From: Bryoerythrophyllum caledonicum
Taxonomy: Eukaryota > Streptophyta > Bryopsida > Pottiales > Pottiaceae
Assembly (NCBI GenBank): GCA_963971425.1
Contig: OZ020521.1
Coordinates: 26,552,012-26,616,011, forward strand
Direction of reading: 5' to 3'
Length of the DNA stretch: 64,000 nt
Made by a program: the position numbers and the translations under genes. Position 1 is the stretch's first letter; each line of letters begins with the position of its first letter. This document shows, piece after piece, positions 31,448-62,700 of the stretch. The notes under the pieces were generated by a model, which had not been told where the DNA came from, did not search any database, and worked only from the letters and a program-made list of their open reading frames with translations.

Positions 31448-32071
31448 AAACTTATAGAGTGCGTGATGCTAGCTACAGCAGTAGAGTAGGGGTTAGAGCA
31501 GAGCAAGGGGTAGAGAAGGGGGCCAAGGGGCTAGAGCAGAGCAAAGGGGGTTGCAGGATTGACACGTGACAATTGGCAGAGGAGGGAGAACAGGGCTGGA
31601 GCAGAGCAAGGGGGAGAGAAAGGAGCCAAGGCGCTGGAGCAGAGAGGAGAGAGAAGGGTCGCCAAAACACAAGCCCATATGCAGACATGGAAAATCGTTT
31701 TGCTCTTAATCACTCATCATGTATGCCCAATGTGAATCAACACTCACGCATCCCACAATACAACACTCTCTATTTTGAGGATTGTCTCAACATTCAGTCT
31801 ATCACAAATCACACACACCATTCCCTTTACATAGTGTTCAATAGATATTTAGAAGAAAAAATTTGTCATGTGTCTAATGCACACTTTATGGCCAAGTGGA
31901 TTCTTCTGCATGGAACACCTCTTCACTTCTTCATTTAGATGTTATTGATATTTTTGAGAAGCATTTATGTTTGGTGGCTTACTCACATGATTGAGTTCAA
32001 TGAAAAAGCATAAGGTGTCAAAGATATTTTGACATTTTCAATATGACCTTCAAATTGTTTATCATAGTTAC

Positions 32072-32648
32072 ACATGTTGATAGATATGGAATAACTTTTT
32101 TATGTATGTCTTTTGGCTTTGAAATTTATCCCACATGTTACTAGCGTAGAGATGATCTTGTGCCAAAAATTTCATTATGTATCAACAAAAACTCAATCCT
32201 AAGGAGGGCGTCAAAGTTGGAAGTAGTAAAATGGTTTTCCCCTTTGTTTCTCAAAACTACACATGTTGGTAGATTTGGAATATTATTTTTTGTATGGGTC
32301 TTATGGACTTGAAATTTTCCACACATGCAAAAAACATAAAAATGTTTTTGCTCCAAGAATTTCATGGGCAAAAAAAATTTCCTCAATTCTTGGGAGGGTG
32401 TCAAAGTTGGCAGCTGTGACACTTTTCTCACAGCTATCCCATGTTGGTAGATCTTGCATAAGTTTTTTGTATAAGTCTCCTGGACCTGAAATTTGGTATG
32501 CATGTTTTCAACATAAAGATGATGCTGTCCCCAAATTTTCATGGTAAAATAACAATTTCTCAGCTTTAGGGAGGGTGTCAAAGTTGGCAGCAGTGTAGGA
32601 CACTATCCCTGGAACTACTAAACGGCCAATTTGAATGTCACCCTATTG
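32072..32648 (-). repeat. Right terminal inverted repeat of the Tc1 element
   Basis: It is the inverted copy of 29871-30449, with the same three internal units and nearly identical sequence. Confidence 0.88.
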
Positions 32649-32650
32649 TA

Positions 32651-35600
32651 CATGGGTAGATTGTGTTCCCTGCGAGAGACAATGTTGGAGGATTATCACA
32701 TATCATCACACGCTTCAACGACACATGGAACTAACCCACGCCACGCGAGCATTTTCAGACCGCCTATTACTGGTAGCCTCTAGACCTTTGTACTACTATA
32801 GCACTAGGATTGCAAAGAGTATTGTAGAAGTATAAGTAATGACTACAAGTATAGTACTAGTTCAAAACGTATTGTCTATTTTTCTAATTTGGATGGTAGA
32901 TTATATATAAATATATATATCTCCCTTTTATTTTGGATATTTTTAAGCAAGGGTGTACTTTCTATTCTACTCAATTATATTTCTTTAATTCCTCAAACCG
33001 CGTGACAATTTTACACCAACAACATTTCAAAATTGTTGATTCTAGTGCAATGAGTACGGAAGAAAACAAAATCTTAAATTGTTTCTTTTCACCGTAGGAT
33101 CTCCATAAAAACTTACTAAGTATTATTCTCACAAAATTTTATACAGTTTGACCGCACGGCTTGAAGGATTTTATAGATAGAGGTCAAGAAAATGATTCAT
33201 TTTCTTCCTGGCCTTGAATTATGAAGCAGATTTTGACTTCACTTGCTACTAAATTGTTGTACTACAGAAGGTCCAAATCTTTTACAAATGTGTTGAGCAT
33301 GATGTTAGTTCAATGCACAACAATTTTACGAGGTAGAGAAGGGGTGTATTATATTCAAAACAATTGTGCATTCGGACATCTAGGCATGTTGCCTACTTGA
33401 GAATTCATTGACCTGACAAGTGACTGAACAAATAAAAATGTACAAAATCTTAGTTAATTGGTTAGGGTATACGTGGAAGTTTAGAGTGGCGACTTCAAGG
33501 GGTTCAATCGATATGGCTCCTGACCATAGCGTGTAGCTCACCCACTATAGTCGGAGTGAGTGGCGGGCTGCCCGCTATTTATGCCATCCGCACAAGGCGG
33601 GCGCATGCCGTCGGCCGAGACGATTTGTTGGAGGCCGTCTAATTGTGAGCCTCATGCGGACCGCGCGATCGAAAGGCCCCGATTGATCGAACAGCCGAGG
33701 CCTACCCCATAGCAATTGGGCGGTGCGGGTAAAACTTGTGATCGCTCTTGGCCGTCCATCACGTCGTCCGCCTCTACGCCTAGCGGACGGTGAGCTCCAC
33801 ACCACGGCTCAAAACTTGAGTCCCCTCCGCTCTGGCCTCTCTTCCCTTTGAATCCCTTTGCAACCCAAAGCCACAAGGTAGAAGACGTGTTGCAACTTTC
33901 CATTTTGGATCAAGAACATCACACGTGCAATCTAAATCTCAAAATTTAGGCACATTAAATGTTGCACAGAAGAATGTCTTCCGAATTTGATACTCATCTC
34001 CAAAATTATCTTAGATCCTTGGCATGCACTAAAACATCTTTCAATTTTAAATATTTTATAATCAAGTATAAAACAAAACTGGAATTTTGGCCCCACGTGG
34101 CACCAATGGTTGCCCGCTTGAGTGGCTCGCATGTCTTCATTGTGAGGGGGGAGGTATATTGCTTGAGTGGACATTCCATTCCTAGTAAGGTAACCTAGAG
34201 GCACCAAATTTCGATCACTTAAGTTAGTTCGGGACTCAAATGACATTGTATGTGACAAACATTTATGTAGAAAGATGCAGAGTTAGGAATGAAATTCAGC
34301 AAATATTTTTTCAAATTTAATCTCAAAGATTTGGAATTGATATAGAATTTCAAAGCCCAAAAACCACGGGAGCCCATAATCAAATCGTAGAGTAGGTGAG
34401 ATTGAGTGCCCTCCTTTGCCTAATGTGTTCAAATGAGAGTGAGTAAAAGAGAGAAGACATGCCATGGATGAACAACTCATGGAGGGTACCAAATGCCGAT
34501 TTGTTTTGTTCAACTTACGAGGCAATGTCACCAAAGAGAGCTCAACTAAAGTGGAGCAACCCAAAATTGCACACTTCATGATCCAATGTTGCTAATTATG
34601 GACATGTCATTTGCAAATCTTGCATTTTCCATTTCCAAATAACCATTTCAAACATCATTTAAAAATAAAATGAAATAATGAGTTCTATTGCATACATAAG
34701 AAATGAAGATTTATAAAATCACCAAAAAAAAAGTATGCATGTCCATTTTACAATGATAGATACGATGGTCTTGCATCCTTTCAATTCTTGAAGAAAACAT
34801 TACGAGGATTTAGAAACAATAATTATAAGTGTATACGTTAATTTATATGTGTCTATATGTATATTAGAACGCATATAAAATCCCACAGTCATAAATTTCC
34901 ATGGAGCTTGTCTTTTGAATGAAATGTAATTTTTTATTGTCAATTGTATCTTCTAATAGGTGATGATAAAAAAATAAGGAAACTTCTAAAACCAAGGGAT
35001 TAGAAATGTGTGGGTGAAAAATATATGTCTATTACGCAATGCTAAATAGGTGGGTCGCAAAACTATTGCATTCCCAATACATCAATTTGGGAAACATGAG
35101 AACATAGAATTCCTCATTCTAAAGGTGCATATAAAAATCATAAATGGACATAGGCCAAATATATAGAATACTGTGGAGCTTTGTGTTTGTTTTGGTTTGT
35201 GAATAGGTATTCAAAATGTGAATAGGAATGGATACAAGGAAATCTTGGTGGATAGATAATGGTGCAAGGACATACCTATGCATGGCAATGAACATTAGTA
35301 CTATTGTGTGTTAAGTGTGGTGTACAAAATACTTTACAAATTTCATAAGAATTCAACTATTTATATTCATTTAATATCACCTTACATTTTTTGGGAAATG
35401 GTGACACTATCATCGTTTTTTAAACTCTATGTCAGTGTCATTATTTATAAATCCAAACATCTAAAATAACATGGCCTTGAAGTTGATGTATATAAAAACA
35501 TTGGGGTTTTTGGTAATCACTTTATATTCAATGTAGGAAAAAAAAATTGTTTCAAGAACTACTTTATCACCTTCCATGGTTTGACCACTCACAAGCTTTC

Positions 35601-38226: not shown

Positions 38227-40142
38227 TCATTGAAATCCTGGGATAGAGGGATCCCACTTCCGAGAATACCCTGTTATAATATTCCTAGATAGCTCAATCG
38301 TCCTCAACGTACGACCATTCTGACATTCAGGGAGGGGATTGTTCTGAACAAACTCTGCTACATGGATGCGTGACGAAAACATTTTCGTCAGCCAAGGCTT
38401 CAGGCGTGTAGCGAGAAACCTGCCCTTCAAATCACCAGTCCAAGGACGAGGATGTATAGCATTGAACTTGCCATTGAAGAGGTTCTTCTCCGAACTGTCG
38501 TCTATGAGCAACGTGAGATCAATGTCCACGTGATCATAAAGCCGAGCAAGTTTCCTGAGGTCCTTCAGCATGTATTGCTTGGATGGATTTTCCTTTCTAG
38601 GAAAGGTTGACATTGTAGTACCAGCTTGGGACAAAACTAAAAGGTCAGTTGGCTTTAGGAGAGAGTTCCCCAGGGCATCTACTAACATGCTATCAACATT
38701 AGTCTTCATCGCACAGCTCCATATCACAATATTAGCGAGTTTGTGCAACCACTCCAAAAAGAGACGACAGTCGGGTCTAGGAATACTACTGCGCGGCGGA
38801 GAAGTCCTATGAATCAAAAATCCATTCAAGTCGAGGACAACAGTGTACCTCGGATGCCTTACCTTCGAATCGCCGGGGGATGTAGGCTGAGTACCTCCTC
38901 GTACTACTCCTACGGTTAAGCAAACATGTAAGCATGAGTGAGGCGCATGGCGTTCGGAGGATCCTTCGAGCAAGTCATATACATACCAGGAACTGAAGAT
39001 AGTGAAGTAGAAGAATGGACATGAAACTCACCTTCTGTAGAGGATGTCGAACCAATAGGAGGAGCAGATGATTCACCCATTCCACTAACATCAGCTACAG
39101 ACGACCTTGGAATAATTCTAGGAGGGCTGAAGGCTAAAAGATCTTCGCTAGCATCTTGGAATACGCCATGATGAACCTCTTCCTCGTTTGCATGGACAGG
39201 CGTAGAAGCTGTTTCTGCTTGGTGAAGACCTTGAAAAACTGGAATCGGCAACATGCCAACAAGATTTGCCAAAGTTGATGCGGCCAATGACTCTGCTATG
39301 TTTTGCGGAGGGTCAAAAATATACTCCGCTGTCTGGCTGGAAGAAGGCTGGGATTCAACTACATCCAATTCCATTGCTACAGGGTCGGATGTCGAAGGCT
39401 CAATATTGGCAGGTGGAACTGGATTACGTACAATCTTGCAAGTAACTCTAGTTCAAGAACCCCGCTTATTGCCAAAATTAGTCACTGTTGGCTTGGGCGA
39501 GCACCAAGGCCTGTCAGCCCACTCCGCTTCCTCGTGTTCCAACTGCTCCTCGTCAATTTTCCTTCGCTCATCAGCTTCAGTTCTTCTTCTTACATCCTCC
39601 TCAAGGTCATCCACCTCCGGCTCAATCTGGGTTGGCAACGGGGAGCACCAAGGCCTCTCAGCCCACTCCGCTTCCTCCTGTTCCAATTGCTCCTCCTCAA
39701 TCTGCCGCCGCTCATCAGCTTCTACTCTTCTCCTTACATCATCCGCAAGGACATCCACCTCCGGCTCATCCTCCTCCTTCTCTGCCTTCTCCTTGTCCTC
39801 CTCCTCAACCTTCTTAGGCCCTTCGTCTTCATGGTGGACTTGCAGGATATCTCGCCTTGGAGAGACGTGGACAATGATGGGATACTACGTCGAAGCTGGA
39901 ATGGTGAGCCCAGATTGGAGGGATCCAGGGGTATGGTATTCGGAACCAGGAAGCTGCGCCCATGAGTAGCGATCAATAAGTTTGTCGTCCCAGTCGGGAT
40001 TTACAAACGCCAATCCGTCGTTAAACAATAAAGTTGGGCGACAGTGAGGATCTAGTCGAAACAACTCTGGATCGGGCAGAACATACGGCCTATTTACCGC
40101 GATGGCAACCTGATTAAAACATGCATCATAGGTGAGACACAC
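38227..40142 (-). pseudogene. FCP1-like HAD-family gene with acidic-repeat N-terminal extension
   Basis: The C-terminal exon (38227 to about 38924) encodes 'RYTVVLDLNGFLIHRT', 'LFLEWLHKLANIVIWSCAMK' and 'LTLLIDDSSEKNLFNGKF', an FCP1-type domain whose box is DLNG (second Asp replaced by Asn). An intron of about 63 bases (38925-38987), GTATGT...GTAG, holds one palindrome. Upstream the same frame continues to about 40142 through a Ser/Pro-rich part, two 48-residue Glu/Arg-rich repeats and 'YVLPDPELFRLDPHCRPTLL'. It is interrupted by TGA (39451-39453) and TAG (39885-39887). FCP1-like proteins dephosphorylate phosphoserine in substrates such as the RNA polymerase II tail; with Asn in the box, activity is doubtful. 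The context suggests a transposon-captured or element-borne gene. Confidence 0.55.
39499..39790. repeat. Two 144-bp in-frame coding repeats
   Basis: 'GAGCACCAAGGCCT' recurs at 39499 and 39643. On minus each unit encodes a DVRRRxEADERRxI...EEAEWA.RPWCSP pattern, likely a charged helical repeat. Confidence 0.8.
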
Positions 40143-46165: not shown

Positions 46166-46316
46166 TAACTTCAGTGAAAAATAGCATACTAGCCCAAGTC
46201 AATCATTTTCACACATTGTAACACATTGTCGGGCAAGGTACCAAAAAGACTTCATCCTTTGCTTATGAAACTTAGAGATCTTCTCATTTGTATTTATTTC
46301 TTTTTTCCACAAAATT

Positions 46317-46706
46317 ATGTGGTATGAACCTTCCTATTGACCATTTGGATTATCAATCTAAAACATTTTTTAAGTTTACAAAAAAATAAAATGTGCGTTG
46401 GCAATTTTTTAACCCTCACTCCTAGCATAGTTGTTTTGAATACGCTACACCCCTCCTCTACATCTACAAATTGGCGAATAAGAAACAAACATCATGCTTG
46501 ACACGTTGGTACTGGATTTAGAACTTGTGTAGTGCAAATTATTATTCGACTCTATTTTTGTGTCCAACATTCTCATTCATTAAAATCTTGATTTCACAAG
46601 TTAGTAACATTGTATCAACAATGCTTAGTAGATTTAAGATGAAACAATGAAGGCTATTAGATCTTAAAGACACTAAATATTTTTCAATGTTTAGAACATT
46701 AAGAAT
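46317..46706 (+). repeat. Direct repeat of about 390 bp, copy 1
   Basis: It is nearly identical to 47110-47499: both run from 'ATGTGGTAT' through 'AATTGGCGAATAAGAAACAA' to 'TTTTTCAATGTTTAG.ACAT'. Together with the 21-bp array it forms a local duplication. Confidence 0.9.
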
Positions 46707-46980
46707 GCTAGATCATAGACCCTACAACCTAGATCGTAGACCCTACAACCTAGATCGTAGGCCCTATAACCTAGATCATAGACCCTACAACCTAGATCGT
46801 AGACCCTATAACCTAGATCGTAGATCCTATAACCTAGATCGTAGCCCCTATAACCTAGATCGTAGACCTTATAACCTAGATCGTATACCCTATAACCTAG
46901 ATCGTAGACCTTATAACCTAGATCGTAGACCCTATAACCTAGATCGTAGACCCTGCACCCTGACCCCTAAGCCTTGAACC
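46707..46980 (+). repeat. 21-bp telomere-like array 1 (TAGACCCTATAACCTAGATCG)
   Basis: About 13 tandem units of the form TAGACCCTA(T/C)AACC plus TAGATCG. The in-frame translation is an artefactual 7-residue repeat (YNLDRRP). It is flanked by 390-bp repeat copy 1. Confidence 0.9.
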
Positions 46981-47109
46981 CTGAACCTATGCATATTATG
47001 TGATCATGACTCGTATTTATTCTAAACCGTATGATGAAACAATGAAGACTATTAGAAATTAAAGACACGAATTATTGTAGACAATACAAAAGGAAATTTC
47101 TCACAACAA

Positions 47110-47499
47110 TATGTGGTATCAACCTTCCCATTGACCATTTGGATTATCAATCTAAAACATATTTAGTTTACAAAAAAAATAAAACGTGCGTTGGCAATGT
47201 TTTAACCCCCCCTCCTTGCATAGTTGTTTTGAATATGCTACACCCCTCCTCTACATCTACAAATTGGCGAATAAGAAACAAACATCATGCTTGACACGTT
47301 CGTATTGGATTTAGATCTTGTGTAGTGCAAATTATTATTCGACTCTATTATTGTGTCTAACAATCTCATTCATTCAAATTTTGATTTCACAAATTAGTAA
47401 CATTGTATCAACAATGCTTAGTAGATTTAAGATGAAGCAATGAAGGCTATTAGATCTTAAAGACACTAAATATTTTTCAATGTTTAGGACATCAAGAAT
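47110..47499 (+). repeat. Direct repeat of about 390 bp, copy 2
   Basis: Second copy of 46317-46706, with scattered substitutions and one small indel near the A-run. Confidence 0.9.
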
Positions 47500-47934
47500 T
47501 TTGGACATTATGTAGGCAAATAAAATCACTTAAATTTGAGTAATGTTATGTATCGCAAATATTATCATTTGTATTCCTTGTACAAATTGTTTGAAAATGC
47601 AACATTGTTTTAGTAACTTCTGTGTAACAATGTTATTCAAATAACCATAATTTATTGAACAACGTCAACAAACTCTATAATAGTCCACATGAAGATATAT
47701 TTGTCTCATTGAGCATTTAAGTTATTACCATGCACATCATCCATATTAAATATATTGCACACTACTTTGGGGGCTTTAAATCTCGGAGCACAAAGACATA
47801 ATTAATTTTTATTGCCAATGCAATTCTGAACAAGTATTTTAAAGAAGTTCCACCACATTTTGGCCTACCTCACAAGTCCATGGAATTTATGAAAAAATTT
47901 GGACACAAAAAAGATGTCGTAGAGGCTATGAGTA
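47500..47934. other. Spacer between duplicated block and second array; nothing recognised
   Basis: AT-rich, no coding signal and no clear repeat. Confidence 0.45.
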
Positions 47935-48470
47935 TACAAGCAAATGAATAGACCCTACACCCTGAACCCCAAATGCTAGATCGTAGACCCTATAACCTAG
48001 ATCATAGATCCTAGAACCTAGATCATAGATCCTAGAACCTAGATCGTAGATCCTAGAACCTAGATCGTAGATCCTAGAACCTAGATTGTAGACCCTATAA
48101 CCTAGATCGTAGACCCCATAACCTAGATCGTAGACCTTATAACCTAGATCGTAGACCCTATAACCTAGATCGTAGATCCTTTAATCAAAATTGTGAACCA
48201 TGCACCCTAAGTCCTAAATCCTACGCAAGGAACTCTAAACCCTGAACCCTGAACTTTGAGCCTTGAATCCTGAACTTTGAACCCTAAGCATGAAACCTTG
48301 AACCTTGAACCTAGATTACAAAACCCTAAATTGTATACATGATGTACCCTATTAATCGGGACGTATCGTGCACCGTAAGCCCTAAAGCTGATGTACCATT
48401 AACTTGGTAAATACTAGACCTTAGACCCTATGCATATTAGGTGATCATGACTCGTATCCATTCTGAGCCG
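47935..48470 (+). repeat. 21-bp telomere-like array 2 and degenerate CCCTGAA/CCCTAAA tract
   Basis: About 11 units of the same 21-mer as array 1 (some TAGATCCTAGAACC variants) run to about 48185. Degenerate 'ACCCTGAACCCTGAACTTTG' and 'AACCCTAAGC' strings follow to about 48470. It looks like decayed interstitial telomere-related satellite. Confidence 0.85.
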
Positions 48471-49770: not shown

Positions 49771-49894
49771 CATCTGAAGGATTGCCGGATGTGTTTGTTG
49801 ATCCAACGTATGGAGGTGGTGTCGCTAGTGACACTGACTGGCGTGATGAATTCAGCCCCGGCATGGAAGTTACCCTTTGCTACTCAAACCATGG

Positions 49895-50466
49895 TGTCCT
49901 GTAAAGAAAGATCGATAACCATAATAGATCGAGAGTCCTAACCAACATCAAATAAACAAAAAACATACACTAAAACAAGTATACGTAATACACCCTCAAG
50001 GAATCACATGTGTTTTCCACAAGAAATCAAGCGACACGCACTCCAAAAGGGGAGAATCAATGAGTGCATCTAAAGTAGAGAATGCGGAGCTTTCATTAAT
50101 GATAAACCATCACTTACAAGCAAAGAACTCACTAATCACTCTCTAACCTTACTCACAAAGCTTGACTTGACAAAGACGTCAAGTCAAGGACGTGTGCGCC
50201 GCTATACACACACGCATACAACCCTAAGTAGATGAAAATCATCCACGGATGAAAACGGTGCGCCGCCGTTCGTCTCTAAACACACATAGATTAGTAACAA
50301 ACTAATCTACGCTAAAATCTACGATACGGAAAGACCCTCGACGCCACGTCCCGTGACAGCTGTCGTGTAAAGAAAGATCGATAACCACAATAGATCGAGA
50401 GACCTAACCAACATCAAATAAACGAAAAACACACACTAAAACAAGTATACGTAATACACCCTCAAG
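49895..50466 (-). repeat. 3' LTR region: core plus two flanking copies of a 106-bp segment
   Basis: The core 50001-50358 matches the right core. A 106-bp segment (AAAGAAAGATCGATAACC...CACCCTCAAG) occurs on both sides of it, 49895-50000 and 50361-50466. A polypurine tract (minus CTAGGGGGGG) abuts the inner copy at 50467-50477, which implies that the U3 end starts there. The junction 50353-50364 contains the palindrome GACAGCTGTC. Confidence 0.85.
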
Positions 50467-50477
50467 TGCCCCCCCTA
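50467..50477 (-). promoter_or_regulatory. Polypurine tract (plus-strand primer) of the retrotransposon
   Basis: Minus-strand AGGGGGGGCAC ends at the first base of the 106-bp segment. G-runs just 5' of the 3' LTR prime plus-strand DNA synthesis in LTR elements. Confidence 0.6.
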
Positions 50478-50781
50478 GCGGATAAAGAGACCTTCTATCC
50501 AGCTAGGACCAAACAACACTAATAAGACTAAACGGCACGGTGATGTCGCTGCAACAACTGTACGCATCCAGCCAAAGATGTCGCCGTCGTCGAATCAATA
50601 AGCATATGAAGAAGTAACAAAGAGATGGTAGGCCGGGTGCAATGTGAGCCCCATCTTTAATCGCCTTAGGCAATTTTGTTGCCAATCCCTTGGTCAATCT
50701 CCACGTTGCCTATCCCTGAACCGAAACCAGGAACTCCAACTGGATGGCAACGCACCACATAATGACAAGTCTATGAGGAAT
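50478..50781 (-). other. Retrotransposon 3' untranslated region
   Basis: Non-coding stretch of about 300 bases between the stop codon of the PHD-ended ORF and the polypurine tract. Nothing else was recognised. Confidence 0.5.
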
Positions 50782-52399
50782 TCAAGCCGTTTCATCGGGT
50801 GAAACGTGACTCGAAGACCTCCGACAACGAGGGCAAGTCCAATCCCCGGACGGTAGAGTAGAAAGAGGCGGCGTCAAGCAAGCCATATGCCAACCACGCT
50901 GGCAATGGTCACAAAGCAACATAGTAGCCGCACCCTTCTTCTCACCACACACAAAACACGGAAGACCCTGTGGCACAACGGCCAACTCAGGATGCACGGA
51001 GCCATCAATGGGCAAATGGCAGGGCGCGCAGTTTTTGGAGTGCTCACGACACTCTCGACCATCTTTGCCTTCCAGCAACAAGATGCCACTAGGCAACACA
51101 TCCTTCACACGAAGAATGGTCCGCCCAGCCTTGACGTCCAACGTCGTAGGCGCCTCACGTTGCAAATAAACGTAATCTCCAGTGGAGAAACGCCGCAACT
51201 GAGGTCGATAAGCGCCGCTGCGAATGCGAGCGTACCGTAATGTGTCGCGATGCTGAGCGATGGATAAATTCTCCATGGCCATTGGCATGGCCCGCTTGAA
51301 GAACTCCGCTCGGTCACGCAGACACTGGATCCAGACCTCTGGATCATCCAAGTCCACAACTGGGGCCAACTTCTCCCGTACAGAACTGGGTAGAATCGGC
51401 TCCCGTCCGTATAACAACTAATACGGACTGAAAGCGGCCAAAGAGGCCTGCCGACTAAACCGGTATCCCATGGCGATCCATGGTATCATCAGATCCCAAT
51501 CACGGTGGCCACCCTGAAGTAATCCATACTTCCGTAGTCCACGCTTGACGATGTTAACCACACGCTCCGCTAAACCGTCCGCTTTCGGATGATCTCTAGA
51601 AGTCGTACGGTGGTCAATCAAAGCCTTGGTGCACAAAGCCTCGAAAGCACCAAGGAACTCACGCCCTTGGTCAATCAACACCTCAGCTGGGGCTCCAAAA
51701 TGAGCGAGCACCCGGTCAAGGAATGCCATGGCCGCCAACTCCGAGGAGTTCTGTGGTAATGCTCAATCCACTTGCTGAAGTGCTCCACCATCACCAACAC
51801 GTACTTGGCTCCACGTGGGGTGACAACAAGTGGCCCGGCAAAATCCAGAGACCAACGGTAGCCCAAACCCATGATGGGCAAAGGCTGCAACTGTGGTGAC
51901 AATGTGTTGAAGCTGGATCTGACCCGATCACAGACTTCATACCGTGAAACGTATATGGCCACTTGCTGATACATGCCGGTCCACCAATATTGACTACGCA
52001 ACATCGAATGAGTCCGCCGCACACCAAAATGACCAAGGTCTTCGTGTACTTGCCGTACCAACGAAGCCCTCTGATCCGGTCTGGGAACTATGCGCCTAGT
52101 TCCATCCGGCCACAACCAAAATAGAAGGCCGTTCTCCCAACGGAACCTCGCTATCCGGTGTCCAACTCGATCGCGCTCCATGGCCGAAAGAGCGGGCGGA
52201 AGTGTGCCATGTTGCAGCTTGTGCAAGACTGGAACGTCTTCCCAGACGTCGCTAACAACCTGGGCCTTGTCCGGTTCCTCATCCGCTGCCATATCAGGCA
52301 ACGTCGATGTGGATCCAGACATCAATGTGAGGTAGGCTGCTGCATGCCACCCCGGGACTAACTCTCTGTCACAGTCCCCATGCCACCTGGCACCAGTCA
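50782..52399 (-). pseudogene. Integrase with C-terminal PHD finger
   Basis: The N-terminal zinc-binding region is 'HEDLGHFGVRRTH...YEVC' (first Cys of CxxC replaced by Tyr). The catalytic core has 'WSLDFAGPL' (D), 'VLIDQGREFLGAF' (D) and 'DHPKADGLAERVV' (E). A frameshift near 51740 separates 'HFSKWIE' from 'ALPQNSSELAAMAF', and a UAG at 51418-51420 interrupts 'SPY*LLYGREPILP'. The final ORF (50782-51417) ends with a complete C4HC3 PHD finger: Cys 154, 157, 169, 172, His 177, Cys 180, 195, 198, with the usual Trp before the last Cys pair. PHD fingers read histone H3 tails. Chromodomains are the common reader at this position in gypsy integrases, so a PHD suggests an alternative way of choosing integration sites. 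Confidence 0.88.
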
Positions 52400-53918
52400 A
52401 ATCCTCCTCCGACGGACTTGGATTGCGAGATAGACCATCCGCATCCAAGTTCGTGATGCCCGCCCGGTGTACAACCTCAAAATCATACTCCTGGAGCAAC
52501 AAAGCCCATCTGGCAAGTTTGCCAGTAAGCTTATCAGACTCCATGAGCCACTTCAAAGGCTGATGGTCGGTCACCAAAGTAAAATGCTGCCCATACAAGT
52601 AGGGCCTAAAATGAGCTATGGCCCAAACCGCGGCCAAGGCCTCCCCCTTATAGGACGAATAGTTGGACTTCGCGTTGTTGTTGCTCCTAGAAGCAAACGC
52701 CACAACGTACTCCCGTCTTTCATCATCCTTTTGAGTCAACACGGCTCCCAATCCTACTGCACTCCAATCTGTGTGCAAGTAGAAAGGTCGTGTAGCATCT
52801 GGACGCCGCAGTACAGGCGCTGAACCGAGCTTTAGCTTCAAAGTAGCAAACGCCTGCTGCTGCTCCCGTCCCCAAGTCCATGGCTGATCCTTCCCCGTGA
52901 GAATAGTCAACGGCTTGGCAATCAAGCTGAAGTTCTTGACAAACCGGCAATAGTAATTCGCCAGGCCAAGAAAAGCTCTGAGCCGCGACACGTCGATTGG
53001 GGTTGGGATCTTCTACAGCGCGTCAACTTTCGCCTGCTGCACGCCAAGACCTCCTGGAACAATCATATGTCCTAAGTATGGCAACCGATCATGGAAGAAT
53101 TTGCATTTGCCATGGTGCAAGCGCAATCCCCACTGCCGTAACCTCTCAAACACCGCCTGAAGATGCCTCACATGCTCCTGTGGGCTGCTACTAAAAATGA
53201 TAACATCATCAATGTAGCATCGGGCAAACAGTAAACCGGTCAACACCCAGTCCATCACCTTCTGAAACTCAGCGGGTGCGTTCTTGAGGCCAAATGGGAG
53301 AAACTTCCAATGGTAGAGTTGATCTCTCCCATCCAGATCAACTCCCCAGAACGCGGTCTTCACCCGGTCGTCCACCATCAATGGTAACTGGTGGTAACCG
53401 GACCGCAAATCCAGAGTACTAAATACTCTGGCGTGTCCCACCGCATCAAACAACTCCTCTGGCGTGGGCATGGGATACCGATCCGACTTGGTCTTACGAT
53501 TGACCGGCCTATAATCCCCACACATCCGCTTCTCCGTCTAGTTGCCAAAGATGTCCTTCTTCGATGGCGTCACCGTGGCACAAGCGTACTCGCCGTTAGA
53601 GAGCTCAATCAAGCTGGCGTCCAACAACTCCTGACAACGAGTTTGAACCCCAAATTTCTCAGAAAGACTGAACTTGTACGGTCGTCGGAAGATCGGGTGG
53701 TCGTCCTCCAACTGAATGTGAATCGGTTTGCCTCTGTAGCCCTCCAAATCATGGAGACTAAAGGCAAAACAACTACGATACGAACGTATAAACGCTTGTA
53801 TCCTTCGTGCCTCGGCACCGGTAAGATGTGGCCCCAAATCCAAAGGCGAATCATCAAATTCCGTGGTCTCCTTCTCCACCGTAGAAGACTCACCGCGTAC
53901 CGGCACGGCCGGTGATTG
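52400..53918 (-). pseudogene. Reverse transcriptase and RNase H domains
   Basis: It continues in frame from the methyltransferase after UAG 53919-53921. RT shows 'MCGDYRPVNRKT', 'FSTLDLRSGYHQLPL', 'FLPFGLKNAPAEFQ' and the catalytic 'YIDD'. The connection shows 'LRAFLGLANYYCRFV'. RNase H shows 'YLHTDWSAVGLGAVL', 'GEALAAVWAI' and 'LVTDHQPLKWL'. Two more UAGs interrupt it: 53538-53540 (where relatives have Trp, 'GN*TEKRMCGDYRP') and 53013-53015 ('VDAL*KIPTP'). All catalytic acidic residues are otherwise present. Copying requires a single polyprotein, so this copy should depend on other elements for RT. Confidence 0.92.
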
Positions 53919-55592
53919 CTACTTGGTAGCAGAGAGGGCATTAATGCCCCTAGACCCCTCACTTACAGAATCTACAGAAAATCCCTTGTCGTGATGATAA
54001 AACTGGGAAAAAATATCTCGAGCATTCTCATGGCCAAAGTCCTCTGCCAAGGCTGCAAAGACACGCTGAGCACGAAGCTCCTCAGCTGCATGTCTCTTCA
54101 ATCGAAATAGCAATTCTGCTTCCTCGATCTCTGTGAGATGTGGCACCGCTGCCCCCTGACCATCAGAGTCTGCCCCCAGCACGCGTGGATGGTCACTCCA
54201 ACGGCGTTGAGCGGCAAAACAGAGGCCACATATCCAAACAAGGGTGTTGAGGTCAATGGCTTGACCCAACAAATAACGGCGTTGGCCCTCAGAGATATCC
54301 GGTGCGGCGGTGGTGCCTGTCAAAAAGCCCATCGCCCGCTCCCTCTCATCGGCAGAAGGCTCCTCGAAAGTGTGGGAAGAAGAATCCCAAACCATGCCCG
54401 GACCGCGTGACCTGAAGGCAAAAGAGCCTGGATAGCACATCAAAGTGGGAAATGCCCCCCGAGTGAAACCAACGCGGTTGACCACCGCCAATGGTGGCTC
54501 ATCATCCTTCGTAACCTCCGTGGAAACACGGCGGTCGTCTAAAATGTCATCGACCTCACGACGCACGGGCCGTTGCACTTGAGCAAGTGCAGAAGTGAGC
54601 GTCGTGGATGATGCCATGTTGGTCCAAATCCAACGTGGCCGATGGGCGTAAGATCCCAACGCTGCGGCATCAACAAACGTAGGGGGACCAAGAAGGTGAT
54701 GGATGTATGCCCCATCTTCACGCACTTTCGTCCGTGTATCCCCCAATGGGGGTACATTCTCAAAAATGTACCCCGGTGGTGTCGATTGGTGGGTAATCCA
54801 CCACTCGACGAGCTTGAGCAAATCCGCAAAGAGACCCGACCGTGGATCATCCAAGCCACGTCCACTTCCCGCCCGTGAATGGCCTTGGCAAGGCCATCCG
54901 GCAATCACCAAGTCCACGTGACCTAACCGGCGAAGATCATCCTCGCTGATCAACGTCACATCACGTGGCAACTTGCCAAAACACCCTCGAATCGCAGAAG
55001 ATGGTAACTGCTCTGGATACAACGCCAGAAGACGTTGAATGTGATGGTCAGCGGCACGGTTGGCTGCAAAGCCACTATCCACGTGGATATACGGTCGTAC
55101 CTTGAGCCCGGCCTCCAACACAGCCGCGAGCCCCGTACTGATACCGGCAAATAACTCCACAAGGGTAATACCCTCATCCAGTGGTCGCCACTGAATAGTA
55201 CGAGCCAACAACGGAGTGGAAGAATCCACCGAAGGCAGTGGAGCATCAAGAGCATCCACGATCTCTCCACTACGACAAGTGAGCTCCAACGGTGTCCCCC
55301 ACGGCGGAAGCGGATCCTTGCAATGACGGGCAGGGATCGCCAATGGTAGGTGCTCGCGTGAATCCTCTACCACAGACATAAATGCATATGCCTCCTTCAA
55401 AAGTGAAAAAGCACACGGCAAGTCTGATGCCAGAGCACTACACCCAAATTTAGAGTCTATCGTCGAAGTCACCGTGCTAGCTGCGAAGACTACGGGGATG
55501 AGCTCCTTCCTCCCATCACCAGCAGACCACCCTGGCCTAATCCAGGCCTCCTCCGTCCAGTTATCCACCCCAAATCCAAGTGGATATAGTGC
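53919..55592 (-). CDS. C5-cytosine DNA methyltransferase domain carried by the retrotransposon
   Basis: It is open from the UAG at 55593 to the UAG at 53919-53921. Counting from the ATG at 55568: motif I 'VELFAGISTG' (137-146), motif IV 'GWPCQGHSRAG' with the catalytic Cys 227, motif VI 'FENVPP' with Glu 270, motif VIII-like 'HRPRWIW' (309-315), 'ADERERAMGF' (406-415, motif IX-like) and motif X-like 'GQAIDL' (435-440). All residues expected for catalysis (PC, ENV, RxR, G-Q-A) are present. The enzyme class transfers methyl from S-adenosylmethionine to cytosine C5. The block order suits a DNMT3-like rather than CMT/MET1 enzyme, but that is by eye. There is no stop or frameshift within the domain, unlike the downstream pol. 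It sits between protease and reverse transcriptase, where no standard gypsy gene belongs, so it was captured. Confidence 0.88.
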   Translation of the reverse strand, partial: ALYPLGFGVDNWTEEAWIRPGWSAGDGRKELIPVVFAASTVTSTIDSKFGCSALASDLPCAFSLLKEAYAFMSVVEDSREHLPLAIPARHCKDPLPPWGTPLELTCRSGEIVDALDAPLPSVDSSTPLLARTIQWRPLDEGITLVELFAGISTGLAAVLEAGLKVRPYIHVDSGFAANRAADHHIQRLLALYPEQLPSSAIRGCFGKLPRDVTLISEDDLRRLGHVDLVIAGWPCQGHSRAGSGRGLDDPRSGLFADLLKLVEWWITHQSTPPGYIFENVPPLGDTRTKVREDGAYIHHLLGPPTFVDAAALGSYAHRPRWIWTNMASSTTLTSALAQVQRPVRREVDDILDDRRVSTEVTKDDEPPLAVVNRVGFTRGAFPTLMCYPGSFAFRSRGPGMVWDSSSHTFEEPSADERERAMGFLTGTTAAPDISEGQRRYLLGQAIDLNTLVWICGLCFAAQRRWSDHPRVLGADSDGQGAAVPHLTEIEEAELLFRLKRHAAEELRAQRVFAALAEDFGHENARDIFSQFYHHDKGFSVDSVSEGSRGINALSATK

Positions 55593-57959
55593 CTACTGGC
55601 CCACCAAAATATCGTAGTTGGTGGCGCCAGTAACAGCGCACTGAAGGGAGACATGGGAGAACAATGGACCAGATCCCATGCCAAACATCAACTGCAACGG
55701 ATGTCGGGTGTAGCCCATGGCCTTCTCCGTGCCCCCAACCGATGTAACAATCGTGAATGGACAAGGCTCGAGGTCCAAAGCACCTAGACCCAAATCCTGG
55801 GCTAGCTGCTTGCCAATCATCACTGGCTGAGCCGCGGAGTCCAACATAACACGTAGGGGGGTAGCTCGAATGGAGTTGCCATCCGTACGGCCTACCACCA
55901 TGACTCCATCGTCATTCACCAAACGTACCACCCCTGGACGCACACTACGTCGCTCCCGTGCCGACCGGGCTGCAACGTCAGACAAATAAGCCACTCCAGA
56001 GATCAAGGCCCGATCCCCGGATGACTGCTCGATAGCTGTGGAAGTGGCATTGGCCTCAAACGCGGAAATAGCCTCCGCCGCCAACTTGGCCCGCATTGCC
56101 ACCAAATCCTCCTCAGTGGGTGGAGCGGTCACTGCCTGTGACACCTCCAACGACGGAATAGGCACCTTGCCTTCCAACATACTACCCGCCAAATGGAATA
56201 TACCGGATGGTTGAAAATCCGGTGTAAGAAAGTCCACACCAGCAAATACCGGCAATTGCAACACCTTATACGCCAAGGTGTGTGCAGCATCTCCAGGACT
56301 GGAAGAAACCGGTGGGACCGGAATCGAAGTGGGAGCGGCAATAGAAGTAGCCGCATCCGCGATGCTGAACGACAGAGGTAGCCGGGACTGACCAATGTGG
56401 TCCGGCAAACCCGCATGGCGTGAACGACCGCTACTACCCGGCACAGTGGAAGAGGGTGCCACCGCCTGTGTAATGGTCTGAGCACGAGTGGCAACCGCTG
56501 CCACCACCTCTCCCGAAGCACCATACAAGTAGCGATCTAAGGCTGAAGATGAGCCCTGACCCGTCACCACAGGCCGTGTGTCTACCACTTGCCCCAAAGA
56601 AACCATCGCGCTCATCTGCTTCTTCAACTCCGCCAATTCGGATTGAAGTGACTTCACGGCATCCGATCCAACAGCCGAAGATCCTGGCCGCTTCTCTGGG
56701 TGAAGAGAAAAGCACTTCTCATCACTGTGGCCAGGCTTGCCACAGTGAAAGCATGTCACAGGCTTCTTCCCCTTGCTCCCGGTCTTCTCCGTAAGCTTGG
56801 CCGCCTCGGTCTTGGGCTTGGCCTTCCTCGCCACTGCCTCCTTCTTCTTCGGACAATTGGGGTCGCCCTTGGTGTGACCGGCCTCTCCACAAGCCCAACA
56901 ATGCACAACCTTTTCAGGTTGTGCTTCTGCCAAGCTACCAGTCGCCGTAGCAAGCTTCTTGGGCTTCGGAGCATCCATGAGCGACGTGACCAAGTCTGTG
57001 GCCTCGCTCACACCCAACGCCCGATCAAGCGCTTCCACCTCGGCGAACGCCTGAGCCAAGGTCGCGTTGCCGTGGTACCGGAAGAGCAAATGCGGACTGA
57101 TCAACTCTACCATCCGCTTGTCGAGCTTGGAGATAAAAATCTTCACAAGTTGGCGCTCCGTAAAGACATCACCAGCCTCCGCCGCCAACCGTGCCAACCG
57201 TGTGTACATGGTGCGTGGCGTATCTTCCTTCTCACGACGGAAGTCCTGGATGCGGTGCATCTGATCGCGCCGAAACCCCCCGTACTCCACCTCCAGATGC
57301 GCCATGAACTGCGCCAAAGGATCGAAGGCTGGCGGGTTGCCAACCGCCACCAATGCTGCACGTGTGGCTACGGCCAAACGAGACATGGCCCTCATGCCAG
57401 CTCGTTCGCCCACAATGGCAACACCCTTGCCCTTGGAGTCCTCACCGAGGAAACTCTCCTCCTCCATGGGCTCCTCGGTGGAAGTCGAGAGTTGGGCAAC
57501 CGCACTCTCCTTGAGTGCAGTGACCAACTCCACACGCTGGCGCCAATACTCCTCAACCGGGCGCAACTCTGCCTCGTGCTGCGTGGTCCACCTCCCATAT
57601 GTCTGAAGTGCCTCCAGCTCCAAATGCTGGGGCAAAAGCTCGAACGCGTACCAATCGTTGAACGACGGCGTCCGCTGGCGCTTCTCCTTCATCCAAGTTT
57701 GGAATCGGAGACGCCAATCGGGTAGGGAGATGCCCCCAGCCCGTCCCGAGAACCTGTCTCGCACGACACGACGGTGATCGTCCTCCATGTCGTCAAACGT
57801 GCCCACACTCCAGACCCGAAGCCTACGGTCGGTATCCAACGCCGAAACAGGCTCAAAAGCCTCGTCGGTATCCGACCCTGGCCCAAAGTCTGTGGTGGAA
57901 GCACTCTCCGAGTGATTTGGTGAGGGAGAGCAGTAATACCGACTCCGGGTACTCACCAT
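55593..57959 (-). CDS. Gag-protease polyprotein (788 aa)
   Basis: ATG at 57957-57959. A retro-gag capsid segment ('RMVELISPHLLFRYHGNATL') is followed by two CCHC zinc knuckles, 'CWACGEAGHTKGDPNC' and 'CFHCGKPGHSDEKC', which bind the genomic RNA. Further on lies an aspartic protease-like domain, 'RVMLDSAAQPVMIGKQLAQD' to 'NYDILVGQ'. The active-site triplet is DSA rather than D(S/T)G. The ORF ends in TAG (55593-55595), after which the same frame continues as 'ALYPLGFG' into the methyltransferase part. In relatives this usually reads through with no stop, so the UAG is either a mutation (for example from CAG) or a suppressible stop that sets the Gag to Pol ratio. Confidence 0.9.
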   Translation of the reverse strand: MVSTRSRYYCSPSPNHSESASTTDFGPGSDTDEAFEPVSALDTDRRLRVWSVGTFDDMEDDHRRVVRDRFSGRAGGISLPDWRLRFQTWMKEKRQRTPSFNDWYAFELLPQHLELEALQTYGRWTTQHEAELRPVEEYWRQRVELVTALKESAVAQLSTSTEEPMEEESFLGEDSKGKGVAIVGERAGMRAMSRLAVATRAALVAVGNPPAFDPLAQFMAHLEVEYGGFRRDQMHRIQDFRREKEDTPRTMYTRLARLAAEAGDVFTERQLVKIFISKLDKRMVELISPHLLFRYHGNATLAQAFAEVEALDRALGVSEATDLVTSLMDAPKPKKLATATGSLAEAQPEKVVHCWACGEAGHTKGDPNCPKKKEAVARKAKPKTEAAKLTEKTGSKGKKPVTCFHCGKPGHSDEKCFSLHPEKRPGSSAVGSDAVKSLQSELAELKKQMSAMVSLGQVVDTRPVVTGQGSSSALDRYLYGASGEVVAAVATRAQTITQAVAPSSTVPGSSGRSRHAGLPDHIGQSRLPLSFSIADAATSIAAPTSIPVPPVSSSPGDAAHTLAYKVLQLPVFAGVDFLTPDFQPSGIFHLAGSMLEGKVPIPSLEVSQAVTAPPTEEDLVAMRAKLAAEAISAFEANATSTAIEQSSGDRALISGVAYLSDVAARSARERRSVRPGVVRLVNDDGVMVVGRTDGNSIRATPLRVMLDSAAQPVMIGKQLAQDLGLGALDLEPCPFTIVTSVGGTEKAMGYTRHPLQLMFGMGSGPLFSHVSLQCAVTGATNYDILVGQ

Positions 57960-59184
57960 AAACAAAAACCACCTTGGGATCTATCTACGGGTACTATCTA
58001 AAGGGTAAGGGTACGAACGGGCAACCTGCACCTGCAAAATCACCAAGCTGTGTGGATCACCGGTCATCACCTCCGGCTACCACAGGTCCAACCACATCCC
58101 CCCACATAGAAAGGTCTTGCCAGCCATAAATCCGACTTCACCTCTACGGTACCCTATCACAAACTGGAACAACAAGAAATGGGGCCACCGGAAAACACCG
58201 GCAACAAGCCCGCAACACGGGGGAGGTACCGCACAAGAATCCAGAAATCAAAACCAGATCCTCTCCCCCAACAATATAAAAGCAGAAAAATGAAAGAGAC
58301 AGCGCCACTAGCACACGCCTGCAGTGGATGCCTCAAAGTCGCAAAACCTGCAAATCAAAGAGAAACACCGCAAGGTGTGCCCTCAATGTCTAAAAACTAA
58401 CGAGGTAATTGAATCCTATGGTCACGGTGTTCAAAAACACTAGTCCCCCAACGAAATTCAAACCATGGGTGACAAACGTGCCAAAACGTCAATCCAATAC
58501 TATAATTGGATAAATGACGAGATTCCTTAACTATAAAAGCAAGTTTCACTCAAAACTAGAGTAAAAATGCACTAGCTAATTACCTCCGAAGTTAGACACT
58601 AAACACTTTTTTTTTTTTTTTTATAGGTCACATAAACATGTGATTGTTTTGAAGACACCTAAAAAATGTCGGTTTTTGAAAGTGCTAAAAACCTAAATTT
58701 TACTGCTCTATAGGGCTTATAATTCCTTTGCGAACTCAAATCCGCAATCGGAATCCAGAAATAATCAAAATTGCAAAAGTTAAAATTTTGATGTTTTGGT
58801 CCAGGGATGTGCTGAAATTTCAGCCCAAAAGTGACGGTTTTAGGAACTTCGGCACGGTTTAGGGTCCCTAACGGAAATACGTACCCCAACGGATTTGCGA
58901 CCCAGCGGATGAAAACTGCCGCAGTGGATGAAAAACCACCATGGATGAAAAATCGCGCGGCGGATGAAAAATTTGCACAGCAGGTCCAGAAGCTGATCCA
59001 CCTTGCTCCAATCTTCTACCGCTCACAACTTCTTCAAAAATTGTCCGAATCGCACGCCGTTTATCGCATTAGCTTCCTCTAAACGCGCTCTACAACATCA
59101 TGCTAAGTACCCACAAGTTTTCTCACAATTTCTAGCTCCATAAAACGAGATCTAATTGTAGAAAATGGAGGGTCTTTGTCAAGT
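57960..59184 (-). other. Retrotransposon 5' leader, about 1.2 kb
   Basis: Non-coding between the 5' LTR and the gag ATG. No TGGTATCAGAGC-type initiator-tRNA(Met) primer-binding site is evident next to the LTR (the minus strand after the LTR reads CTTGACAAAG). There is an 18-base T-run near 58605. Confidence 0.5.
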
Positions 59185-59542
59185 GAATCACATGTGTTTT
59201 CCACAAGAAGTCAAGCGACACGCACTCCACAATGGGAGAATCAACGAGTGCAACTAAAGTAGAGAATGCGGAGCTTTCATTAATGATAAACCATCACTTA
59301 CAAGCAAAGAACTCACTAATCACTCTCTAACCTTACTCACAAAGCTTGACTTGACAAAGACGTCAAGTCAAGGACGTGTGCGGCGCTATACGCACACGCA
59401 TACAATCCTAAGTGGATGAAAATCATCCACGGATGAAAACGGTGTGCCGCCGTTCGTCCCTAAACACACGTAGATTAGTAACAAACTAATCTACGCTAAA
59501 ATCTACGATACGGAGAGACCCTCGACGCCACGTCCTGTGACA
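59185..59542 (-). repeat. 5' LTR (core only)
   Basis: 358-bp direct repeat of 50001-50358. It begins TGTCACAGGAC on minus, flush with the target duplication, and ends ...GATTCA. The 106-bp segment present beside the left core is absent here. Confidence 0.88.
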
Positions 59543-59749
59543 ATGGCGCTGTTGGGAAGGGAATTGTCATTGAAGCAATACCCACTAGGCATTGGCTTGG
59601 TGTTGACATCAATCTCACCATGGTCGCGATGTCTCTGCTTAGACCTATTGAGATACTTCATGAGGCGTGCAATCTTATTATTCGGCCGTTGCAACAGGGC
59701 GTATCTCTCTTGGCAGATTCGATAGGTAGAACGGCTCTCTGGGAGGCAT

Positions 59750-62700
59750 CGCAAGTAGTGTTGTCATCAAAGGATCCTTTGATGGGCCCGGACGTAGGCA
59801 ATACATCCGGTTCCACTTGCGCCCCTTCTTTTGTCCCTCAGGCAGAATGGGTGGGAATGGTGGTTCGTCGCTATGGCTATGATGGGAATCTTATTGCCTT
59901 TGGTCGTGTCAATTGCTCTCTACCCGATGAGCCATTCCAGGTCAGTACTTTGGGGGAGGGGAACATTGGCGTTACTGTATTTGACATTTTCATCGGGGAT
60001 CAAGATGACATTATGAGTCATCAAAGGTGGCCCATCCCCGAATGTAAACTCGAGGGCGGCCATGGCCTTAGCGAGACGGTTGCTTATTTCATTCGAATTC
60101 CTGAAGCATCGGACCCAAATGCGCATCTTGGTGGTCGTCCAAAAGCACCGTATCGGTTTGTTCATCGCAAGAAGAGAACTGAGGAGAAGCTCAGTGCGTA
60201 CTCAAAGAAGACTTGTCAGGATGTGGTTCAAGCGGTCAGTTCGCTATTATGCTGCCCTGACGAGTGTGTTCGATTATTCCGGCCCCAAAGTACCTTGTTT
60301 CTCCGACAACGGTACTATCTAAAGGACTTTGACGACTGGAGGGAATATGGAATCGCTGTGGGCGGGCAACTTCGTCACATGGGCAATAATCGGAAATGGA
60401 CCTACGTTACTTTGCTCGGTCAAGATGTCTACGCAACAGCATGGTATAAAATTGATGGTATACCAAAGTCGACATTCCACAGCTATATCGACCAATACAA
60501 AAAGGGTATCTTGTCATCAACGCAAGGGAACAGAGGCGTCAAACGTCCCCGCCTTGGAACCGTGCAAGCAATGGATACAATTTCGGCAATCATCAATGAG
60601 AATGTCGATCACATGCCTCACTAGATGCGGACGACTGTACCAGGGCGGATGGACACACTGAAGTTCTTACCGTCTGGTCATAGCTGGAAGAGGATTCAGG
60701 CTAACGCCACAGAGGTAATCATGTCCAAAACCACCTCCAAGCTCCAATTATCATTTTTGGTCAACCACTCCCATTGCGTGGCGATATCAGTTTTTATGTG
60801 ATTGAAGGATCTTTGATGCCAGTAGTAGCCTCAATGTTGATGTTGCTAATACTCCTTGTTTTGCTCTGTTTGCAAACAAACTTGGAGTACAGGTTGCCCA
60901 AGGTTTCTTAGTCTGCTGATAGTAGAATCAAGAAAGAACTCTTCAACAATGTTGTTGTAAAACCCGTGGGCAGTTCATTTGCAAAGTGCACCCTCTGTGA
61001 CACTCTTCAACAATTCATTAGCAAATCCGTGAAGGGCTCCGCCGAGTATGTGTCATTCATTGAACAACGACATGCACACTTGAACCACCAAGCTTTGTGT
61101 AGGCGTGTGTACCATACTTGGAGAGAGGAGTCTAAATGCAAGAAAGACGAAATCGTTTGCATTATCCACGATAAAATGGATACTGCCAAGATTGCCATCC
61201 CTCGTATGCGAGTTACCACGAAACAGAATTCAGGTCTTGGTCAGCTCCCGGTGAATGTCACCGGCATGGTCACGCACGGACATGGAGACGGTGCCTATGC
61301 TCACTATTCTACTGACTTGTGGCCGGCAGACTCAAATTATACCATCTCGTCCATTGCGAGATTACTTCGACATCTCGAGGAACCACCTATTCGCGTCACA
61401 GGTTGACTTTTTCCTTACGAGCCAGCAAACTCATTCTTTGCAGCATTGCTTAAAGGGAAGTCTAGATGTATGGACGTTTTACCTACGGTGGTACCGAACT
61501 ACTCAATTGCAACCGTCCCACTACCAAACAATCTATATTTGCAGCTACACAACTCTGCAAAAGATAATAAGAACCAATTTCTCATGGCGTTCTTATCTTT
61601 GTTGACTTACCAAAGGGTGTTCAAGGAAATCCAAGTTGGTTTCCTATTAGTCGGGCATACACATGAGGATATTGATGCTTACTTCAGCCACTTGTCCAAG
61701 GCCTTGAAGAATAAGAATTCATTTGTCGTCGCTGACTTGATGAAGTTTCATGGAATCGCAGGAGATGAGTGTCATGCCCGAGTTTGTTCAGGAGGTTGCA
61801 GATTTCAAATCTTTTCTCTGGCTATATATGTGATGGTGCACAAAGACTTGTTGGTTTAGGAGAGATGCACCTCTTCAAATTCTACATCGATGAAGACGGT
61901 TGGCCGGTCATGCGAACTTACAAGATGTCTGCAATTGATCAGCATTGGCTACCTCGGAACAAGCCATGTTTACGTCTTTGGAAGGAAGATAACAACAGCA
62001 ATCCCATCATACCTTCCGGCTTCCCAAACCCAGTTCCGTTCAAGCAATTGTGGGGAGACGAGGTTCCTTCTTCAACGAGCAATCAAGTGAAGGCAAGAGA
62101 GAAAGCTGCCAAAACACTTGATAAGAGGTCGTTCATTAAGTCTGGAATACGAGGTTATATACAATACTGGGAACAAGGGATGCGTTCATGTGAGGGCTTT
62201 CGAAGGGATTTTCCACCTTATGTTGATTACTGGAATGCAATACTTGCAGAACTAGAACAACCTCTTCCGCCCACTCCTTCGGCCCTGGTAGAAGGCTTCT
62301 AGCCAATCCATGACTGGAGTGCGACAAGTCGAACTCCCTTATATCTCACTGCTGGAAGAGATGTCACACTTGAAGACGTCGAACCTGAAATTTACTGTGG
62401 TCCACGCTCGGAAAAGCCAGAGGAGTCGTTGAATCCATGGCGAGATGTCGTACCGGGATCATGGGTCCTACTCCGTCCCTCAGACCCTGAAATATATCTT
62501 GTCTGGTTAGGGAGAGCGCATTCAGTAGTCAATAGAGAAGTTGGACATGAGGAGTACGGAAAGTTCATTCTCCAATTCTGGGAGCCAAGAAATGTGTTCA
62601 AGGACCACAAGAAGAAGTATGAGGATTGTTGGACATCGACATGGGTCCCCAAAAATGGACGTCCAGTTAGCGTTCATGTTGATGCCGTCTTGTTTGCCTC

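Follow-up and report, generated by a model that had tools for sequence, protein, structure and literature searches.

Structure of the element

The window, a stretch of 64,000 nucleotides from Bryoerythrophyllum caledonicum, carries on its minus strand a Gypsy-type element of 9,648 bp (49895-59542) with a cytosine-5 DNA methyltransferase (MTase) in its coding region. The outer ends of the element, identified by self-comparison, read TGTC...GACA and are both flanked by a 4-bp target-site duplication, CCAT (one copy; chance match 1 in 256), so that ends and duplication together indicate an inserted copy of 9,648 bp. The features are listed here in the sense of the element; L017 is a second copy described below.

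49895-59542, minus: whole element, ends TGTC...GACA (from repeats and ends)
59543-59546: target-site duplication CCAT (minus-strand reading), upstream side
59185-59542, minus: repeat A1, 358 bp (self-comparison)
59349-59361, minus: 13-nt complement, within A1, of the presumed primer-binding site; RNA 5' end as predicted
59172-59184, minus: presumed primer-binding site for self-priming, directly after A1 (prediction)
55593-57965, minus: gag with CCHC knuckle (56724-56756) and aspartic protease (55719-55862); Pfam, below curated cut-offs
55593-55595, minus: in-frame TAG at the protease/MTase boundary, in this copy only (absent in L017)
53919-55592, minus: MTase frame, 557 codons; core 54240-55175; catalytic Cys codon 54888-54890
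53913-53921, minus: TAG CAA TCA after the MTase, common to L017; candidate readthrough motif
53013-53918, minus: reverse transcriptase (RT), with an in-frame TAG at 53538-53540 and a further TAG at 53013-53015
51678-53012, minus: RNase H and N-terminal part of the integrase (H2C2, start of the DDE core)
51421-51762, minus: remaining integrase core in another frame (frameshift in this copy)
50785-51417, minus: C-terminal part of the integrase and PHD finger (50824-50958; Pfam)
50467-50479, minus: polypurine tract immediately upstream of B1; same sequence in L017
50361-50466, minus: repeat B1, 106 bp (self-comparison)
50355-50364: palindrome GACAGCTGTC across the B1-GC-A2 joint; one occurrence each in the window and L017
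50001-50358, minus: repeat A2, 358 bp (self-comparison)
49895-50000, minus: repeat B2, 106 bp (self-comparison)
49891-49894: target-site duplication CCAT (minus-strand reading), downstream side

Along the minus strand, Pfam detected a weak CCHC and protease, followed by DNA_methylase, RVT_1, RNase H, H2C2, rve and PHD, which includes the protease-RT-RNase H-DDE integrase order of Ty3/Gypsy elements; the duplication likewise falls within the 4-6 bp of that group, in one copy only. The repeats are arranged as A1 - coding - B1 - GC - A2 - B2, with 14 differences between A1 and A2 and 5 between B1 and B2. A standard LTR structure, with the same full LTR at both ends, was not found, A standing at the 5' end and B-GC-A-B at the 3' end, and we therefore call the element Gypsy-type by its pol domains only. 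The tyrosine recombinase of DIRS elements (PF00589) was absent from the Pfam scans, with rve and H2C2 present instead. Neither at E 0.1 nor at 0.01 did Pfam find the chromodomain of chromoviruses; it found a PHD finger after the integrase (E 9e-12).

Elsewhere in the window, a Tc1/mariner-type transposase ORF (30437-31468, minus strand) lies within 585-bp inverted repeats that are 98.6% identical (29864-32655), probably marking a young DNA transposon. DUF7869 occurs in two ORFs (60966-61406, plus; 25381-25923, minus), perhaps from a repeated gene family or an unclassified mobile element. Positions 46304-48338 contain nested tandem repeats (unit length 21 bp) together with a 0.4-kb block that is duplicated, and an NLI-interacting-factor-like phosphatase ORF (38227-39027, minus) is probably a host gene or a fragment of one.

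The methyltransferase is of DNMT3 type

Frame 53922-55592 on the minus strand runs for 557 codons without a stop, and along it VELFAG, PCQ, ENV, HRPRW and GQA follow one another unpermuted. The protease end of 55593-57965 and the RT of 53013-53918 flank it in the same frame, with a TAG on each side. Pfam assigned it to DNA_methylase with 43.4 bits (cut-off 22; E 3.9e-11), and a profile comparison with solved structures matched it best with DNMT3B/3A (E 4e-23). The AlphaFold model has a mean pLDDT of 80 (at least 90 in 299 of 549 residues; 77-98 in ten-residue blocks of the core), and DNMT3 entries made up all 50 Foldseek matches listed (the best 50 of 914 at E 10 or less). Chance could not plausibly give such agreement. 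The absence of DNMT1 and CMT from the structure matches listed (best 50 in Foldseek) proves nothing. In the alignment, the catalytic Cys was kept in 89 of 91 rows, the Glu of ENV in 89 and the HRxR arginines in 80 and 77, and motif I had C instead of F in 23 (e.g., P0050, P0124, P0157 and P0170).

The nearest catalytic domain is thus that of DNMT3, with unpermuted motifs, and profile, fold and tree (the last with one DNMT3 sequence) agree that the window MTase is DNMT3-type. For the tree, 16 of the 20 non-element loci were taken (bacterial or phage rows and Streptomyces), with one dropped for length; the element MTases grouped together, separately from DNMT3B, with low support (58/82; recovered in 57% of 200 bootstrap trees), which fits several captures as well as one; the sequences included one DNMT3 and no plant DNMT3. 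This phylogeny, which the preliminary description had suggested, indicates the same DNMT3 kinship as profile and fold. The description had also placed a full C5-MTase motif set at 53919-55592, the span of the MTase frame, in frame between protease and RT, as the open frame, Pfam, profile and fold confirm, and its view of a Gypsy-type element with its own cytosine-5 MTase is upheld by the Pfam domains, the DNMT3 matches and purifying selection (see below). A bacterial or phage origin of the enzyme is unsupported by the solved-structure profile and the tree, and motif order and profile scores speak against an origin from DRM, which is permuted.

A second copy and related proteins in streptophytes

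A scan of the genome-contig collection returned five loci, four of them Streptomyces MTases; the fifth, L017, is a 9,285-bp contig whose MTase is 88% identical to that of the window over all 549 residues. ORF1 of L017 (3-3488, open at the contig start) comprises gag-protease (604 codons matched, 86% identity) and the MTase and ends in TAG CAA TCA. ORF2 (3492-6632), in the same frame, encodes RT, RNase H, integrase and PHD, and the order of the window element is kept through to the PHD finger. The two ends of the contig share 127 identical bases, an overlap that assembly collapse of repeats explains as well as a real circle does. This eukaryotic-type retroelement contig is filed in a cyanobacterial MAG and is likely misbinned.

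Three protein searches, each scoring about 8,000 candidates, gave 58, 126 (120 listed) and 87 matches, amounting to at least 207 distinct related proteins; compared with the window MTase, all 207 reached E 1e-4 or better. The preliminary description had called for a search for other copies with the same gag-MTase-RT order, which yielded L017 in addition to these proteins. It had also named two ways in which it could fail, and both are excluded: the region does match C5-MTases, and a one-off insertion of a host gene is ruled out by the related proteins together with L017. Relatives listed by organism include 8 from Marchantia polymorpha, 2 from Calypogeia fissa, 1 from Sphagnum fallax, 3 from Closterium and 2 from Klebsormidium nitens, as well as one labelled as a bacterial MAG. 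The pol matches were 72-77% for Sphagnum integrase (79 and 43 residues), 47-53% for Marchantia RT, 54% and 48% for Klebsormidium RNase H and integrase, and 42% for the PHD part of P0053.

For the tree of relatives, 91 of 208 rows covered over 80% of the core, and rows without an organism label were thinned at 75% identity. In the resulting 39-row tree, Marchantia, Calypogeia, Sphagnum and two further rows formed a group (100/99), as did Klebsormidium (100/99) and the window MTase with six further rows (98/94); the Closterium MTases had no placement in this tree. Two of the latter (P0051 and P0052) read ECQ for PCQ and EHL for ENV and possibly represent an inactive MTase lineage. P0006, annotated as a DNA cytosine methyltransferase of a Candidatus Obscuribacterales MAG, is an element-type MTase 72% identical to the window's and likely misbinned. 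The virus collection yielded no relative of the window MTase, of the query labelled A3 or of L017 ORF2; the query labelled A2 gave 16 loci there, which were taken as bacterial or phage rows.

Purifying selection and a conserved stop codon

Nei-Gojobori dN/dS between the window and L017, one pair of DNA copies, was 0.088 (0.045-0.155) for the MTase core and 0.089 for RT (two RT pieces, 0.210 and 0.036). The MTase core is thus under purifying selection, with a constraint equal to that of RT in this one pair of copies. The MTase flanks (0.235) and the whole MTase frame (0.170) were both above RT, and the remaining values were 0.076 and 0.075 for RNase H-integrase, 0.142 for gag-protease and 0.031 for the PHD part. 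Part of the window changes arose after the death of this copy, so the true dN/dS may be lower.

The coding region of the window copy contains one frameshift and four in-frame stops, all of them TAG (4/4). L017 has only the TAG after the MTase, so the TAG before the MTase is specific to the window copy. Given three extra stops at which L017 is open, and the frameshift, the window copy is dead and makes no full product itself. A recoding of TAG as a sense codon was considered, all four stops being TAG, but the other three are missing from L017 and decay is the simpler explanation.

The window element and L017 each contain a single TAG CAA TCA, at corresponding positions between MTase and RT; the sequence fits the UAG-CAR-YYA readthrough motif. 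In both copies the MTase belongs to the gag-protease frame upstream of this conserved stop, so it is likely made at the Gag level, and the enzyme is probably tied to the particle. RNA folds after the MTase stop had z values of -4.64 in L017 and -2.40 in the window. An RNA-level constraint after the leaky stop was rejected, as third-position differences there were 3 of 40 compared with 1-14 of 40 in other 40-codon blocks of ORF2.

In all 37 relatives measured, the protein ended 10-192 residues past the MTase core, as known from protein ends alone in a set hand-picked from the 207, where broken-off contigs or errors of gene calling may account for some of the termini; the end lay exactly 17 residues past the core in 11 of 14 relatives from the Klebsormidium-side search. 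The Gag-side placement is not universal, because the Closterium gene models P0051 and P0052 continue from MTase into RT without a stop. Gene models of Marchantia, Sphagnum and Klebsormidium fuse the MTase to pol parts, perhaps across predicted introns.

Split repeats and a possible route of integration

Immediately after A, both copies have a 13-nt site complementary to an internal stretch of A, with one matched change between the two copies; it is predicted to be a primer-binding site for self-priming. Together with the polypurine tract before B1, the site after A1 would bound a B-GC-A LTR of 466 bp. The B1-GC-A2 joint is a palindrome, present once per copy, and this stretch is unchanged between the copies, while A is only about 77% identical. 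The conserved palindrome apparently joins two future ends, which suggests integration from a circle.

We propose the following course for working copies. Ribosomes would mostly stop at the TAG after the MTase, giving gag-protease-MTase, and would occasionally read through into RT-RNase H-integrase-PHD; in this proposal, the frequent stopping would make the MTase abundant where cDNA is made. The element's own RNA would supply the primer: its 5' end would pair with the complementary site adjacent to A and start reverse transcription there. The cDNA, with full B-GC-A LTRs (466 bp), would then be joined into a two-LTR circle, which would account for the A2-B2 joint. Integrase would cut one GACA-GC-TGTC palindrome with loss of GC, and the permuted A...B-GC-A-B would be inserted with a 4-bp duplication; cutting a two-LTR circle at one such joint would produce exactly this arrangement. 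Finally, the PHD finger may steer insertion by histone H3 state, and incoming DNA bearing 5mC would pass as resident DNA. The repeats thus offer a concrete and testable route from a DDE integrase to DIRS-like split repeats.

Joined into a single reading, these points would describe a streptophyte-wide lineage (Klebsormidium, Closterium, liverworts and Sphagnum) in which a DNMT3 is packed with Gag, the cDNA is pre-methylated and self-primed, and integrase cuts the palindrome of pre-joined ends in a two-LTR circle. We advance this combination tentatively and think it somewhat unlikely to hold in full. If true, it would give a present-day example of integration through a circle junction, a route long abandoned as an explanation for retroviruses.

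Possible roles of the methyltransferase

DNA methylation is a main tool of hosts against transposons, and a transposon that supplies the enzyme is thus a testable paradox. Our preferred explanation, which we see as evenly poised between right and wrong, is that in working copies the DNMT3-type MTase, made in the gag-protease frame, methylates the element's own cDNA in the particle before integration. It is preferred because the MTase lies on the gag side and CpG is not depleted in the element (observed/expected 0.89 in the window copy and 0.82 in L017, compared with 0.74 for the remainder of the window). CpG depletion is accordingly rejected as proof of self-methylation, and its absence also counts against methylation before integration. 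CpG sites account for 6 of the 13 transitions between the repeats of the window copy (p 0.003), which points to methylation of the copy once inserted, whichever enzyme was responsible; host enzymes alone may be the source. The dN/dS of the whole MTase frame and of its flanks, above that of RT, counts against the preferred explanation, and the Closterium run-on models and the published Pol-ORF DNMT of K. nitens count against a general Gag-side placement. Two observations in PMC5890265 also count against the preferred explanation: retrotransposons without DNMT move in such genomes too, and the K. nitens domain gave no methylation in yeast, where human DNMT3B failed as well, so that this negative does not decide the matter. 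The eight Marchantia polymorpha entries point to a tractable genetic model for tests, if an intact copy is present.

The target of the MTase could instead be host chromatin at the fresh insertion or close to it; by marking the site and silencing either its neighbours or the new copy, the enzyme would make each copy tolerable and keep damage low. We consider this unlikely, although there is a PHD finger at the integrase end, and the best solved matches of the L017 finger include CHD4, PHF12, UHRF1, KDM5 and PHF21A, several of which read unmodified H3. The stop shared by both copies separates PHD from MTase, so the two would become one targeted enzyme only if readthrough made the fusion. Self-limitation is among the ideas of de Mendoza 2018 (PMC5890265).

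An MTase whose DNA activity was lost or never present in the element, and whose task in the particle is to bind nucleic acid or modify RNA, appears quite improbable. The inactivity of the K. nitens domain in yeast (PMC5890265), the altered Closterium motifs and the C for F in motif I fit such a role, but the catalytic Cys and Glu are each kept in all but two rows, and the nearest solved class is DNMT3, not DNMT2. We are equally doubtful that the MTase counters a host sensor or nuclease directed at unmethylated foreign DNA, or blocks cytosine deamination of the cDNA, rather than acting on silencing: its placement with Gag and early cDNA is favourable, but we know of no such sensor of unmethylated DNA in streptophytes. 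De Mendoza 2018 proposed this idea (PMC5890265).

Comparison with known systems

The DNMT3-bearing Gypsy kind is already known since 2018 from KnitGypsy-Dnmt3 of Klebsormidium nitens, for which PMC5890265 describes Gypsy domains, DIRS-like A-coding-B-A-B repeats and purifying selection. The preliminary description had noted captures by LTR retrotransposons in a few lineages and called them very unusual; with the same kind already published, the element is less unusual than the description judged. Both elements have a Dnmt3-type MTase in a Gypsy coding region and A-coding-B-A-B repeats with no full LTR at both ends (PMC5890265); the K. nitens proteins P0157 and P0170 belong to the same MTase superfamily as the window MTase, whose core is 34 and 38% identical to the two K. 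nitens entries. In KnitGypsy-Dnmt3, however, the DNMT is in the Pol ORF (PMC5890265), whereas here the MTase is in the gag-protease frame before the stop, in the window and L017 alike, so we regard the window element as of the same kind without filing it as KnitGypsy-Dnmt3.

Retrotransposons have also captured DNMTs in Symbiodinium (SymbioDIRS-Dnmt3, whose DIRS form has split repeats, and SymbioLINE-Dnmt), but these use a tyrosine recombinase or LINE machinery (PMC5890265), unlike the DDE integrase and target duplication of the window element. Self-priming is described for the Tf1/Sushi and Tcn1 Gypsy elements (PMC6317226); the window element likewise has a predicted self-complementary primer site but differs in its split repeats and in giving no chromodomain match. 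Orchid Gypsy elements carry another captured nucleic-acid-modifying enzyme, an m6A demethylase domain, in another host and in a separate open reading frame (PMC9289625). DNMT3 inside retrotransposons of streptophytes and dinoflagellates was mentioned again in 2025 (PMC12344493).

The combination seen here was not recognised in the literature covered, searched by titles and abstract starts on subjects that included bryophyte cases, PHD-bearing Gypsy integrases, split-repeat Gypsy elements and LTR readthrough, with most subscription journals and bioRxiv outside that range. Relative to KnitGypsy-Dnmt3, the PHD finger, the primer pairing and the palindrome belong to the window element and do not appear in the text and legends seen of PMC5890265. 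Together, what is new is the MTase in the gag-protease frame ahead of a TAG CAA TCA kept in both copies, and, in addition, the PHD finger after the integrase, the predicted primer site complementary to the element's own repeat and the conserved palindrome that joins its ends.
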